Assembly: GCA_945898275.1 (NCBI GenBank)
Contig: CAMDHZ010000005.1
Coordinates: 62,001-126,000, forward strand
DNA from: Chitinophaga pinensis
GTDB taxonomy: Bacteria; Bacteroidota; Bacteroidia; UKL13-3
DNA length: 64,000 nt
Reading direction: 5' to 3'
Below are positions 2,066-8,400 of this stretch, one piece after another. The notes under the pieces are model-generated. The model searched no databases and was not told the origin of the DNA. It saw nothing but the letters and a program-made list of their open reading frames with translations. Position 1 is the stretch's first letter, and every line of letters begins with the position of its first letter. A program made the translations under genes and the position numbers.

Positions 2066-2156
2066 TTTCTATTAGCAATGAAAATTTCTTACCCCAAAAA
2101 AAGTATGGTCTTCCCAAAGCTCTCTTTCTCTTCACTCTTGCTCTATACTGTTTTTG

Positions 2157-2357
2157 GGGTAGCTCCGCACCTTTTATAGAGTAGCTATGTACCATTTATG
2201 GAGTAGCCTCGCACCATTTATGGAGTAGCTCCGTACCTTTTATGGAGTAGCTCCGCACCATTTATGGAGTAGCTCCGCACCATTTATGGAGTAGCTTCGC
2301 ACCTTTTATGGAGTAGCTTCGCACCTCTTATGGAGTAGCTTCGCACCTTTTATGGAG
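2157..2357 (+). repeat. 22-bp tandem repeat array, nine copies
   Basis: Nine head-to-tail units recur with an exact 22-bp period; GTAGC begins at 2159, 2181, 2203, 2225, 2247, 2269, 2291, 2313 and 2335. A typical unit reads GGAGTAGCTCCGCACCATTT plus AT. Each unit carries a tiny inverted repeat, GGAG-TAG-CTCC, and changes often keep pairing (CTCC to CTTC by G-T). There are no unique spacers, so it is not a CRISPR. The array occupies a gene-free region of 547 bp. Confidence 0.95.
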
Positions 2358-2377
2358 ACACCCTCCCAAAATCTGTG

Positions 2378-2436
2378 AAATCTGTGGCATCTGTGAGAGA
2401 AAGGGTGGCTCACAGATAGCACAGATTAACACAGAA
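2378..2436 (+). repeat. dispersed hairpin repeat, copy B
   Basis: This is the second copy of the element at 1296-1353, in the same orientation, with a few substitutions and one inserted T. The 9-bp arms ATCTGTGAG (2389-2397) and CTCACAGAT (2409-2417) and the 11-nt loop are kept. It directly follows the 22-bp tandem array. Confidence 0.85.
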
Positions 2437-2612: not shown

Positions 2613-4004
2613 TTGTACGCCATTGTCGACATAGAAACCACTGGAGGGCATCCCACCCAAAACAGAATTACTGAACTTTCCATCTATGTACATGATGGCG
2701 TTCAGGTTGTTTCTCACTTTGAAACGCTCGTCAATCCCGAAATTCCTATTCCTCCCTATATCCAAGCTTTTACGGGTATTACCAATGACATGGTGGCATC
2801 TGCACCTACTTTTAACCAGATTGCACAGGAGGTTTATGCCACTTTAAAGGATAATATATTCATTGCCCATAATGTAAATTTCGACCATAGCTTTATCAAA
2901 AATCAACTTGTTGAAGCGGGTTTCGACCTCAACGTAAAAAAGCTTTGTACCGTTAGGCTCAGCCGAAAGATTGTGCCAGGTCACCGTTCCTATAGCCTTG
3001 GGAATATTTGCTCAGCACTAGGTATTCAACTGCAAAACAGACACCGTGCAGGGGGAGATGCCTTGGCTACCGTCAAACTTTTCGAACATTTGATGGCCAA
3101 TGATACAGAGCATCACATTGATGATTCTTTGAAACGAGGCTCTAAAGAACAACAACTTCCACCCAATGTTAGCAAAGCAGATTTTGAAAAACTACCTAAA
3201 GCGCCCGGTGTCTATTATTTTGTGAACGAAAATGGCTTGGCTGTTTATGTTGGTAAGGCTAAAAACATCCGAAGTAGGGTGGCTAGCCATTTCAGCGGAA
3301 ACTTAAAGTCTAAGCAAAAGCAAAATTTCATGCGCGATATCTATGGCTTTAGCTTTGCCCCAACCGGCAATGAGTTATTGGCTATTTTGCTAGAAAGTCA
3401 TGAGATTAGGCGACTTTGGCCCAATGAAAATCGCTCCCAGAAGAAAGTCAGTCAGGTGTATGGACTGTATGACTATTTGGATCAAAACAGTAAAATAAGG
3501 TTTGGAATTGATAAAGTTAGAAAAGAGCTAAAGCCCTTAGTTACTTTTGGCTCTCATGCCGCTGCTTTACAATACCTCAACAGCATGATAGATGTTTACG
3601 GATTATGTCCGAAACTATGCAACAGCCAAACCAACACGGGCCCTTGTATTTCAGTTAAAAATGAAATTTGCGATGGGTATTGTTTGGTTCAAGAAAATGT
3701 AGCAGACTACAACGCTAAGGCACAAGCCTTTTTTGACCAACTGCTTGCAGATAAAAAAACTTATTACGTGGTAGGCAAAGGAAGAAGCTACAAAGAACAA
3801 AGTGTAGTGGTTTACGAGCCAGGTAGTTTTGTGGGCTATACCTTTGTTTCTATAAAAGAGCAATTAGATTTCGACCAAGTAAAAGACAGTTGCGAAGCGC
3901 TTAAAATTAACAGCTTAATGGAATCTGTATTAAGCCAAGTAGTAAGTGGCGAAAAAAGTAAAGGTTTTAAAGTTTACACGCAATTGCGCATGGCCATCCA
4001 CTAA
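2613..4004 (+). CDS. DnaQ-type 3'-5' exonuclease fused to UvrC-like GIY-YIG nuclease domain
   Basis: This nuclease of 463 residues has two catalytic modules. Residues 1-165 form a DEDDh exonuclease like the DNA polymerase III epsilon subunit: DIETTG (Asp6, Glu8), NVNFDHSF (Asp91) and HRAGGDA (His144, Asp149). Residues about 195-280 form a GIY-YIG domain (GVYYF at 199-203, VYVGKAKNIRSR at 211-222) resembling the UvrC N-terminus. A Cys-containing tail follows. The combination suggests DNA repair. The start is a TTG at 2613 giving MYAIVDIETTG; no in-frame ATG precedes it before the stop at 2577. A TATTTTTG box at 2598-2605 places transcription only a few bases upstream. The 3' end overlaps mtaB by 4 bp, convergently. 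Confidence 0.88.
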   Translation: MYAIVDIETTGGHPTQNRITELSIYVHDGVQVVSHFETLVNPEIPIPPYIQAFTGITNDMVASAPTFNQIAQEVYATLKDNIFIAHNVNFDHSFIKNQLVEAGFDLNVKKLCTVRLSRKIVPGHRSYSLGNICSALGIQLQNRHRAGGDALATVKLFEHLMANDTEHHIDDSLKRGSKEQQLPPNVSKADFEKLPKAPGVYYFVNENGLAVYVGKAKNIRSRVASHFSGNLKSKQKQNFMRDIYGFSFAPTGNELLAILLESHEIRRLWPNENRSQKKVSQVYGLYDYLDQNSKIRFGIDKVRKELKPLVTFGSHAAALQYLNSMIDVYGLCPKLCNSQTNTGPCISVKNEICDGYCLVQENVADYNAKAQAFFDQLLADKKTYYVVGKGRSYKEQSVVVYEPGSFVGYTFVSIKEQLDFDQVKDSCEALKINSLMESVLSQVVSGEKSKGFKVYTQLRMAIH

Positions 4005-4014: not shown

Positions 4015-5314
4015 GTTCAAACAGAAAATTCTTGCAATCCATCACCATTTCAGCATCAATGCTGGTAAGCTTGGCCATTGAAATTTCATTTACCAAAGCT
4101 GGGTCATATGCCGTTTTTACCTTTATATAATTGCTTGTAAATCCAAACATGGTATTGCCGTCACTTTCTGCTTCCCACAAAACAGGATAAGTATTCCCAA
4201 TATGCTCTTCATAAAATGCCCTGCGTTTTTTATCCGATAAAATATGAAGCATTTTGCTTCTGTCTGCACGCACATGCATGGGTACTTTTCCAGGTAGTTT
4301 AAAGGCTGTAGTATTCTCCCTTTCGCTATACGTAAAGACATGTAAATAAGAAATTGGGAGTTCGTTTAGGTATTGGTAAGTCTCTAAAAACAACTCCTCT
4401 GTTTCGCCAGGGAAGCCAACAATTACATCTACACCAATGCAACAATGTGGCATAAGTTGCTTAATTTTTTCAACCCTCGAAGTGTACAAAGCAGTTAGGT
4501 ATTTCCTGCGCATGCTTTTTAGCAAAGTATCAGAACCAGCCTGCAATGGAATATGAAAATGAGGAACAATTTTTTTTGATTGGGCCACCCATTCTATGAT
4601 TTCATCACTTAACAAATTGGGTTCAATGCTGCTTATTCTAATACGTTCCAAGCCCTCAACTTGGTCTAGGGCTTGCAAAAGTTGGTAAAAGTTTTGGTTT
4701 GAACCAATCCCAAATTCGCCAGTATTTACGCCTGTTAACACAATTTCTTTAGTGCCTTGCGCAACAATTTCATGAGCTTGCTTCACCACATTTTCAATGG
4801 TATCACTTCTGCTTTTGCCACGGGCTAGCGGTATGGTACAAAATGAACAGAAATAATCGCAACCATCTTGAACTTTAAGGAAAGTTCGTGTTCTGTCGCC
4901 AATAGAGTAGGAGGAATGGTATTCTAAAACTTCCTTTATTTTACCTTCCTTTATTTCAGCAATTTCCTTTTTTCGGGTTGAACCAAGGAATTGATGCAAG
5001 TTAAATTTTTCGGCAGCACCCAAAACTAGGTCGACACCTTCAATAGCAGCAATTTCTTGCGGTTTAAGCTGCGCATAACAACCTATAACCACGATAAAAG
5101 CAACAGGATTATGTCTCAAAGCTTCTTTCACAATGCGTTTGCATTTCTTATCGGCATTGTCTGTAACAGAGCACGTGTTAATTACATAAACGTCTGCTCC
5201 TTCTTGAAACTGAACTTTAGCATAACCCTCTGCAAGCAAGGATCTGCCAATGGTTGAGGTTTCAGAAAAGTTTAGTTTACAACCTAAGGTATAGAAAGCA
5301 ACTGATTTAGACAT
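4001..5314 (-). CDS. mtaB: tRNA (t6A37) C2-methylthiotransferase MtaB
   Basis: This radical-SAM methylthiotransferase of 437 residues converts t6A37 of tRNAs to ms2t6A. The N-terminal MTTase domain has the three cluster-binding Cys (TLGCKLNFSE, NTCSVT, GCYAQ). The radical SAM motif CDYFCSFC (CxxxCxxC) follows near residue 150, and a C-terminal TRAM-like part completes the usual length. The TLGCK opening and NTCSVT favour MtaB over MiaB or RimO. The gene is convergent with the exonuclease gene, sharing 4 bp at the 3' ends. The ATG start at 5314 leads directly into MSKSVAFYTLGC. Confidence 0.93.
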   Translation of the reverse strand: MSKSVAFYTLGCKLNFSETSTIGRSLLAEGYAKVQFQEGADVYVINTCSVTDNADKKCKRIVKEALRHNPVAFIVVIGCYAQLKPQEIAAIEGVDLVLGAAEKFNLHQFLGSTRKKEIAEIKEGKIKEVLEYHSSYSIGDRTRTFLKVQDGCDYFCSFCTIPLARGKSRSDTIENVVKQAHEIVAQGTKEIVLTGVNTGEFGIGSNQNFYQLLQALDQVEGLERIRISSIEPNLLSDEIIEWVAQSKKIVPHFHIPLQAGSDTLLKSMRRKYLTALYTSRVEKIKQLMPHCCIGVDVIVGFPGETEELFLETYQYLNELPISYLHVFTYSERENTTAFKLPGKVPMHVRADRSKMLHILSDKKRRAFYEEHIGNTYPVLWEAESDGNTMFGFTSNYIKVKTAYDPALVNEISMAKLTSIDAEMVMDCKNFLFEPIPH

Positions 5315-5400
5315 AATTGGCGCGCAAAAGTAACCCTAAAATCCCAAAGCCACAAGCAAAGATATTTGTAATTTTAAGGATTAATTATGCTACCTATTCA

Positions 5401-5429
5401 TTGAAATTAATGACTAAGTAGTATATTTC
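5401..5429 (+). promoter_or_regulatory. candidate Bacteroidetes-type promoter for the PKD surface protein gene
   Basis: TTG at 5401-5403, 18 bp, then TATATTTC at 5422-5429 matches the TTG-N19-TAnnTTTG form with one mismatch. Transcription would start around 5434, only a few bases before the ATG at 5437, so the message may be nearly leaderless. Confidence 0.45.
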
Positions 5430-5436
5430 CCCTTGA

Positions 5437-8400
5437 ATGAAAAGAAGAATACTAGTATTTTTTATTTGGCTATTACCAGTGTTGGCTTTGGCTCAAAACT
5501 GTAAAATTGTCACTGGAACCAATAAGGTTTGTCTAGGAAACACAATGTTGTTTACAGTTACATTTGACGCTGGTTTCACGGCACAATCTTATGCTTGGAA
5601 CTTTGGAAATGCAGCTACCAGCTCGCAGGCCAGTCCGGTTTACCAATATCCCTTAAGAGGAGTTTTTACCCCAACCGTAACCATTAACTTTATGGGCGGA
5701 GGTTCTTGCACAGTGAGTGGAGAGCCAATTAGAGTGGTTGGAAATCCTAATGCAGATTTTCAAATTGCAACAAATGTATCCCAATGTTTTAAGAACAACC
5801 AAACTTGTATAACAGATTTAACTACTCCGGGGCCCGACAATGCCCCAATACAAACCCGCTTATTTTTATGGGGTGATGGAGCGTTTTCTAATCAAAGTCC
5901 ACCCGTTGGAAATTCACTATGCCAAACTTACACAAACCCGCTAGGTGGAGTTTATACCTTAACCATTGAAGTGTATGATACCAATAATTGCTCTGCTAGA
6001 AAAGAAAGAAAGGATGTAATAACAGTATTTTCTAAAATGCAGGAAGTGAGCTTTAGAACCAATTATACTACCCAGTGTTTTTCTACACCTGCACTATTTA
6101 CAAACACTTCTAAAATTCCGCAATCGCAAGTGAAAAGTTATATTTGGGATTTTGGAGATAGCACAACTGCAACAAGTCCTTGGACCAACTTCACAAAGAA
6201 TTACACCAAATCAGGCATATTTACAGCTAGGCTTATTGTCGAAGATTTAAATGGCTGTAAGGATACAGCTATTGTTTCACCAGCTGGAGAAAATTATAAA
6301 TTAGATTCTACCATTTACCTAGATAAGGTAAAAACTTGTTATAATATGAACAGTTTTACTTTCGTATCTAGGAATTTTTATCCAGGTGCCATGGTAAATT
6401 GGGCAATCTATAAAGTAGGAAATCCTATTAGGATTGATACCCTAACCTTTACCAATATGGATAGTGTTTCGTTTACAGATTGTGGTCAGTTTTTATTAAA
6501 AATGTATGTTCGCTTAGGGAATTGCTCCTTTATGACAGATACTTTATTAGAAGTCTTAGGGCCAAAAGCAGTTATGGAAACTCCTTTGGATAAAGTTACA
6601 AATAGCATTCAATGCGAAATTCATGACACAGTAATTTTCAGAGGCCCTCCACCAGCAGATAGAAGTTGTTTTTATCAAAATAGTAATATCCTTCGCATTT
6701 GGGATTTTGATGACCCATTTGCTCCTGCATGTACCACCGATATTAAATTAAATAAAAATGTCGGACTTAACTGTCGATATAGTAAAGACAGCATGAATGT
6801 TAAGCATCGTTATACACCTGGAAAGGAACGTTGCTATTATCCAAAATTAACCTTAACAGATTTAAATAGTGGATGCACCCATTATGATACTGTTGGCTTA
6901 AAACTTACAGCCCCAGATGCAGGTTGGGATAGCACAATTTCGCCTATCAGAAGAGGATTATATTATAAAGGTGTTCCATGTTTAAAATCTGGTATTACGT
7001 TTCATATAGAAGAAACGCTTCCGCTTTGTGGCAGAGAACAAGCGTGGATAATGCCAGATACAGCTTGTGACAATGCTGTTTGGATAAAAATTGATTCAAC
7101 TTCGAATACGTATGAATATTCTTATCAATCAACTTGTAGCAAGGATGGTAAAGTTACCGTTGGATTAATTATTAAAAATGGATTAGATAAAAATGGAAAT
7201 CCTTGCTATGATACAGCTTACTATCCTGTCATGTTTACCTTTTTTCCGCTTGACCCAAGTTTTGATATAAAAACTACCAGCACTGGATGTGGACCTTTTA
7301 GTATCAAGCTTACCATGAATGATAGTATTCAAGATAGTTTGGTTAAAGCAGTTTTTTCTGGTAGTGTGAATAGAACCCTTTCATTTAATCTAGGTGATTC
7401 AATTATTCCAACCCAATATTTTACCTTTCCAACACCCGGAATAAAAAGAATAAAACTTGAGCTATACAATACCCGTGGTTGTATTTTGGATTTTCAAAAA
7501 GACATATTTTTTGGATTCTTTAAAACCTTTCAACCTGATAAAGAAATTGTTTGTTTGGGAGATTCTGTTGAATTAAGAGACAATGTAAGTTATTATAATA
7601 GTACGGTGCCTTTTTGGAAGAATCCGGCAAGGGCAACGGCTGGTAAAGAACAACTTTACTGGGATTTTGGAGACGGAAGAGGCTTTGCTACTTCTGGACC
7701 AAACCCTAAGTTTAAATATCCTAAAGTAGGCAATTTTAGATTAAGAATGGTTGCAGTGGATAGTGTTGGTTGTAGGGATACATTTATTTATAGCATTTTG
7801 GTAAAAGTAATTGATGTGCAAGCAGCCATTAAAAGCATGCAATCAAGGTATTTATGTGCTCCCCAAATTTTAGCCTTCGAAGATCGCTCAAAATACATCG
7901 ATTCTAGTGCTTTGTTAGGACAACCCCCGTTTGATGCAATTACAAGTTGGTATTGGGATTTTGGTGATAATAAAACACCAAGTTTACTTCCAAATCCTGT
8001 ACATGCTTTTACCGCTAATGGCACTTATAATGTTAAGTTAAAAATTACTTCAGGGAAGGGTTGTATAGACTCAGCCTCCGTGCCAATTTGGATAGATGGT
8101 CCAAGACCAAGATTTGATATCGTGAGCGATACCATTGGTTGCGCTCCATTTACTGTGAACTTAAAAAATACGACGGGTTATCCTTTGATCAATTGGGTTT
8201 GGTATTTTAGGGACCAATCCAACTCCATTGCCAGTACCAAACTTGATACAAATGTTAAATTTACTTACGTAAACCCTGGCACTTACAAAATCTATGTAGT
8301 GGGTGAAGACACCATATTTGATCCCTTAACAGGAAACTTTAAAACATGTTTGGCTGTATTTCCAGATTCCTTGAATGTAAATGCTGAACGCAGAACCATT

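Follow-up and report, generated by a model that had tools for sequence, protein, structure and literature searches.

Within the window, that is the whole 64,000-nucleotide stretch of Chitinophaga pinensis DNA analysed here, TRF detects a single strong 22-bp array, at positions 2151–2357, with a period of 22, 9.5 copies, 88% matches and 0% indels. In family register it comprises nine full units of type A (TATGGAGTAGCTYCGCACCNYT-like; 2153–2350, forward strand), the first of them odd in sequence, followed by a partial unit running to 2356. The unit pattern, at up to 3 mismatches, returns nine matches at steps of exactly 22 bp and none in 100 shuffles, which bears out the exact nine-copy period described in an earlier note on this DNA. 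The array sits between two forward-strand open reading frames: a 182-aa ORF at 1517–2065, lipoprotein-like by eye and with no Pfam match, and an exonuclease plus GIY-YIG protein at 2613–4004 that is matched in 19 of 19 genomes of the genus. The intervening 547 bp (2066–2612) form the longest internal stretch free of ORFs of at least 100 aa, as the same note had stated, and are exceeded only by the cut window edge at 1–579. A pyrimidine-rich leader of 33 bp (2120–2152, forward strand) ends exactly at the first unit, with 1 mismatch to the leader pattern and at offset 0, and is bracketed by a 17-nt inverted repeat (2090–2106 and 2145–2161, forward strand, 94% complementary), the right arm of which enters the odd first unit. 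On the downstream side, positions 2357–2384 (forward strand) resemble, with 6 of 28 mismatches, the putative right tip of an insertion sequence (IS) discussed below, with the outer end toward the array. This tip-like stretch overlaps a CTGTG-rich imperfect palindrome (2372–2427, forward strand), a separate dispersed intergenic repeat that has a second copy in the window at 1291–1344 (93% over 54 nt); five further arrays (L049, L089, L090, L092 and L093) are likewise followed by CTGTG-like sequence (up to 2 of 27 mismatches). A different palindromic repeat, GACCATGGTCCATGGACCATGGTC, occupies an intergenic position at 1422–1445, and similar GTCCATGG stretches occur at other intergenic sites, L156 and L160 included. 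A promoter and terminator scan gave seven promoter-like sites, where shuffles average 4.6, and four terminator-like sites, where they average 1.2, two of the latter within the array; these are consensus matches only and are not taken as evidence.

A-unit arrays occur at six places in the genome that holds the window (G000) and are many, on different contigs, in two relatives (G005 and G008). Searched with a 29-base pattern at up to 3 mismatches, the other 16 genomes of the genus and 41 genomes outside it contain no A unit. When the GTDB contig collection was scanned for exact matches to one 26-base degenerate pattern, a search that may miss records of the own genome, the unit appeared in no records but those of two pond MAGs, JAIYAT and JAIYCU, which match G008 and G005, respectively. 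The earlier note had named absence of the unit elsewhere as part of a refutation; sought in the genome and its relatives, the unit proves to be dispersed in all three. A plain local minisatellite, born of slippage at this site and never dispersed, would fit the imperfect tandem copies, and yet it has practically no chance of being correct: it is refuted by the recurrence of the unit, often together with leader and borders, at many loci spread over different contigs in three genomes. The gene contexts of the arrays vary between loci. Judged by mechanical ORFs of at least 80 aa, A and B arrays (type B is defined below) are intergenic, with the exception of 13 of 36 arrays that overlap a short ORF of this kind. 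Some arrays stand at contig ends (C33 and C35 in G005; C6, C23 and C34 in G008). One array in G005 (L038) bears on the window's left neighbour: at its leader lies the C-terminal fragment of a gene homologous to the lipoprotein-like one (4965–5078; C33:10464–10577), and a full homologue lies some 2 kb away, which suggests a rearrangement at that array.

The leader recurs in much of the family, as was found on comparing the loci studied, these being the places matched by the A, B or leader patterns. Among testable arrays found by their A unit, 14 of 21 carry the leader in register, at offset 0 in 13 and at +1 in L043. Over all testable arrays the count is 24 of 32, with some B loci that were found by their leader included and L094, whose array position was set manually, left out; the remaining 8 of 32 have no recognisable leader at up to 12 mismatches, at which threshold the motif, derived from some of the same loci and matching those by construction, occurs in 0 of 298 control windows. 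This threshold, like those of 7 or 8 mismatches used for the tips below, was set after inspection. Searched for with a 29-base pattern at up to 3 mismatches, the leader turns up in 3 of 19 genus genomes. It likewise precedes arrays of a further 22-bp unit, B (TGGGTACCYGCTTGGTATAACA-like), which was detected in 4 of the 19 genomes, the fourth being G013. A and B intergrade, as evidenced by a G013 array of ACCCCCTCCGCACCATATGTGT-like units and by relic B-like terminal units that stand in register on some A arrays, clearly so in L029 and L032 and as hybrids in L048 and L100. A third type, C, follows on from an A array in L037 with about 16 units at the same 22-bp step (reverse strand, 5131–5482). 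No long tail common to the arrays was seen: some A arrays end B-like, and an IS-like tip is found at 12 of 35 downstream borders. G013 also holds a locus (L140, 1766–2228) at which a sequence of about 217 bp stands three times in tandem, every copy with a tip-like motif, ahead of a degenerate B array. A phage or plasmid origin of the family is ruled against by searches in which the exact A and B patterns had no match in viral contigs and the window array had none in plasmid and phage collections by distant BLAST.

Orthologous sites reveal turnover. Thus, the same site carries one A and 11 B units in G005 (L040) and 14 A and one B in G008 (L046); 11 A units in G000 (L029) stand against six B units in G008 (L160), with a homologous terminal unit; and 23 A units in G008 (L050) correspond to one degenerate unit in G000 (L094). 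Likewise, the site of the 11 A units of L032 has a single A and a single B match in G008, and the 11 B units of L091 face one A-like unit in L098. A further pair is L089 and L156, at which the 572 bp of G000, which include a B array, give way in G008 to 55 unrelated bases between flanks that are 98% (589 bp) and 92% (250 bp) identical; the empty site is thus not a clean one. Right-flank homologues of three further G000 loci (L090, L092 and L093) lie in G008 in approximately 3-kb stretches without A or B units; among the other sites probed, L088 has no match at the same threshold, L031 has one, in G005 only, and right-flank matches of L030 are likewise restricted to G005. Type and approximate size are kept at three site pairs (L033/L051, A14/A13; L036/L044, A12/A16; L095/L099, B11/B12). 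For the window copy, the retrieved loci of the exonuclease/GIY-YIG orthologue from G005 and from five other species are free of A units on both strands and of B units on the forward strand; in G008 a contig end truncates the orthologue. The earlier note had proposed a comparison of copy number among strains; made between related species, this comparison reveals differences at orthologous sites in number, type and presence.

A-unit sequences are more often shared within than between genomes. Sharing amounts to 0.166 within genomes (91 pairs) and 0.030 between them (162 pairs; permutation p = 1e-4), and p remains at 2e-4 or less once possible duplicate contig ends are dropped, L042/L045 and L038/L039 each being potentially two ends of one array. 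The effect comes chiefly from G008 (0.20), with 0.075 in G000; in G005 the value is 0.074, or 0.03–0.06 without the possible duplicates, against 0.04–0.05 between genomes, and shows no clear excess. Among the A pairs, four were tested as orthologues, the orthology of two being uncertain, and their sharing ranges from 0 to 0.074. B units give no significant within-genome effect (p = 0.26).

The borders of many arrays resemble the ends of IS256-family elements. An IS in L146 (from G017) encodes a Mutator/IS256 transposase (PF00872, E = 6.4e-114, Pfam). One of its ends is a clear tip, and a putative second tip differs from the inverse of that one by 9 mismatches. Counting matches with at most 7 of 28 mismatches to the L146 tips or to one related motif, we find 28-bp tips at 13 of 33 upstream borders (four contig-start arrays, L039, L045, L100 and L101, being left out) and at 12 of 35 downstream borders, with six arrays flanked on both sides, where matches in L034, L051, L093 and L146, from which the motifs derive, are by construction. 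About two thirds of the borders are without a tip, and control windows contain none (0 of 434, at up to 8 mismatches to any tip motif). The outer end of the tip points toward the array in every qualifying border, and at the six two-sided loci the tips are inverted, with the IS outer ends facing the array. Because the tips turn these outer ends to it, the array does not lie inside an ordinary MITE. The family is accordingly not a MITE by strict definition: terminal inverted repeats with their outer ends on the outside are not what the six two-sided loci contain. The same polarity is also what any IS remnant beside an array would show. The array blocks carry no transposase and stand outside the IS tips; the array of L034 directly adjoins the start of such an IS, and in L091 an IS of this kind begins upstream of the leader. 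Visual inspection of the 14 bases beyond the tips at ten loci showed no target-site duplication. The related tip motif also lies beside arrays of other sequence in G005 (L137, 1842–2179, and L138, 1352–1611), which consist of 21-bp repeats in 63-bp higher-order units of unrelated unit sequence.

Each unit had been described as carrying a GGAG-TAG-CTCC mini-dyad whose variants keep base-pairing, and a small structured RNA or an array of hairpins had been put forward as one reading of the locus. In the window the dyad pairs in seven of nine units when G-T is allowed, and the forward strand of 2116–2366 folds slightly better than shuffles (z = −1.67, with 13 of 200 shuffles folding as well). The family tells otherwise. 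All four pairs are kept in just 31 of 137 distinct A units (from 23 arrays), and the pairing total of 400 lies below the mean of 412.7 for shuffled unit halves, 1999 of 2000 shuffles reaching at least 400; the conserved pairing was thus a local impression. The strongest mutual information connects the neighbouring subtype positions 2–5, 13–14 and 3–5 and not the stem partners, the reverse strand folds at z = +1.73, the window array has no Rfam match at gathering level, and a dyad at the type C boundary is not significant, 266 of 5000 shuffles scoring equally well. Since the dyad is not conserved and the folding is unremarkable, the structured-RNA idea fails, and we regard it as very improbable.

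What does remain constant is the spacing. With ungapped unit models and steps below 60 bases counted, so that units of deviating length would have shown, 230 of 236 A steps are exactly 22 bp, the other six all being 43 and all in G005, and 84 of 86 B steps are exactly 22, while neighbouring units differ by about 3 bases. In 11 locus pairs, gap openings number 21 against 177 mismatches (0.119) in flanks outside ORFs and 28 against 2215 (0.013) in ORFs. Such rarity of indels resembles that of ORFs, and a coding repeat, in which 66 bp equal 22 codons, would explain it. Mechanical ORFs of 80–148 aa overlap the 13 arrays mentioned above, and 6 of the 33 arrays of at least 88 bp have a frame open through them (L031, L042, L047, L048, L090 and L100, mostly of TGGGTAG-type units, which lack reverse-strand stops). 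Against this, at a period of 22 bp any stop within the unit comes back in every frame. Each of the six frames of the window array is interrupted by three or more stops, and 27 of the 33 arrays are closed in all six; protein coding was rejected, and the coding reading deserves almost no credence. Because indels are rare relative to the flanks, even though 27 of 33 arrays are without an open frame, the arrays look length-constrained, and a constraint on array length is suggested. The units are not independent, however, and exchange between arrays could itself purge those of deviating length.

Twenty-two base pairs correspond to about two helical turns, so every unit would offer the same face to a DNA-binding protein, as the earlier note had proposed. 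Because the spacing is constant, a phased protein-binding array of architectural or regulatory function, its start fixed by the leader, is the main alternative to a repeat without function, albeit an unlikely one. It would account for the near-invariant A and B steps between units that diverge in sequence and for the scarcity of indels in arrays that are mostly closed to translation, as well as for the continuation of an A array by type C units in L037 at the same step and for the nine A-unit positions at which at least 96% of units have one base. It fits less well with sites that persist while A, B and C sequences replace each other, with arrays that are gained and lost in varying gene contexts and in few species, and with homogenising exchange, which could purge off-length units; nor are the differences between units independent mutations. 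A further reading, which we consider more doubtful still, is that the period and not the sequence is selected: interchangeable arrays of A, B and, in L037, C units behind one leader would then be candidate phased platforms for the spreading of a DNA-binding protein, dispersed with IS256-family ends. If true, a mobile minisatellite would distribute architectural sites through the chromosome.

The closest known system is BrickBuilt, a minisatellite/MITE of Porphyromonas gingivalis, also of the Bacteroidetes, and the only recognised bacterial minisatellite element with a leader in the literature searched. As described (PMC4596501), BrickBuilt consists of 23-nt tandem units without spacers, is present in 19 intergenic copies per genome with a copy number that varies between strains and a restricted host range, has a leader and a tail flanking part of its copies and tips like those of resident insertion sequences, carries 0–6% indels in the repeats within an element, and may affect neighbouring transcription, as judged from E. 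coli reporter assays. Compared with it, the A/B arrays share the spacerless tandem units of about 22–23 nt, the leader, the many variable intergenic copies in few hosts and the IS-like tips, and differ in their 22-bp, near-invariant period, in having two or more unit types under one leader and at one site, and in tips that resemble the IS256 family with the outer end facing the array. The family is best understood as a dispersed minisatellite that is like BrickBuilt in layout and behaviour; in the literature searched, mostly that outside subscription journals, the A/B family is not described. IS256-family insertion sequences (PF00872, Transposase_mut) are linked to the family by the 28-bp tips next to many arrays and by the IS starts at L034 and L091; they differ in that the array blocks, without transposase, lie outside these tips. 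REP/BIME palindromic repeats also have many intergenic copies with a short dyad in the unit; in our arrays the dyad is not conserved, and the units form long head-to-tail arrays of fixed period. CRISPR arrays have a leader-like flank, and some plasmid iterons are direct repeats of about 22 bp. A CRISPR was rejected on the grounds that the units abut head to tail without unique spacers and that many loci exist in one genome. Unlike plasmid iterons, the arrays occupy many loci per genome, and the window array has no match in the plasmid collection. In three neighbours of the window copy, Pfam finds no replication-initiator domain.

Taken together, the window array is probably one member of a family of non-coding, minisatellite-bearing elements that are scattered between the genes of a few related Bacteroidota, two of them known as pond MAGs. 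The mobile or slippage-prone repeat family that the earlier note had listed among its readings is thereby largely upheld, by the dispersed loci, the changes in copy number and type, the one two-sided site without the block, the within-genome sharing of A units and the IS256-like tips; movement itself we infer from these. Copy number would shift by slippage or unequal recombination, exchange among dispersed arrays would homogenise the units, and new sites may be reached by hitchhiking with, or mobilisation by, IS256-family elements; the process that moves the element may be transposase action, hitchhiking or recombination. Such an element would need no cellular function, although its arrays may incidentally affect neighbouring transcription. 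Counting against this explanation, the near absence of unit indels exceeds what drift plus slippage readily predicts. For genome analysis, the array family may break short-read assemblies, since some arrays stand at contig ends. As a second family of this type in the same phylum as BrickBuilt, it suggests that such elements arise repeatedly, and their spread becomes testable by strain comparison.
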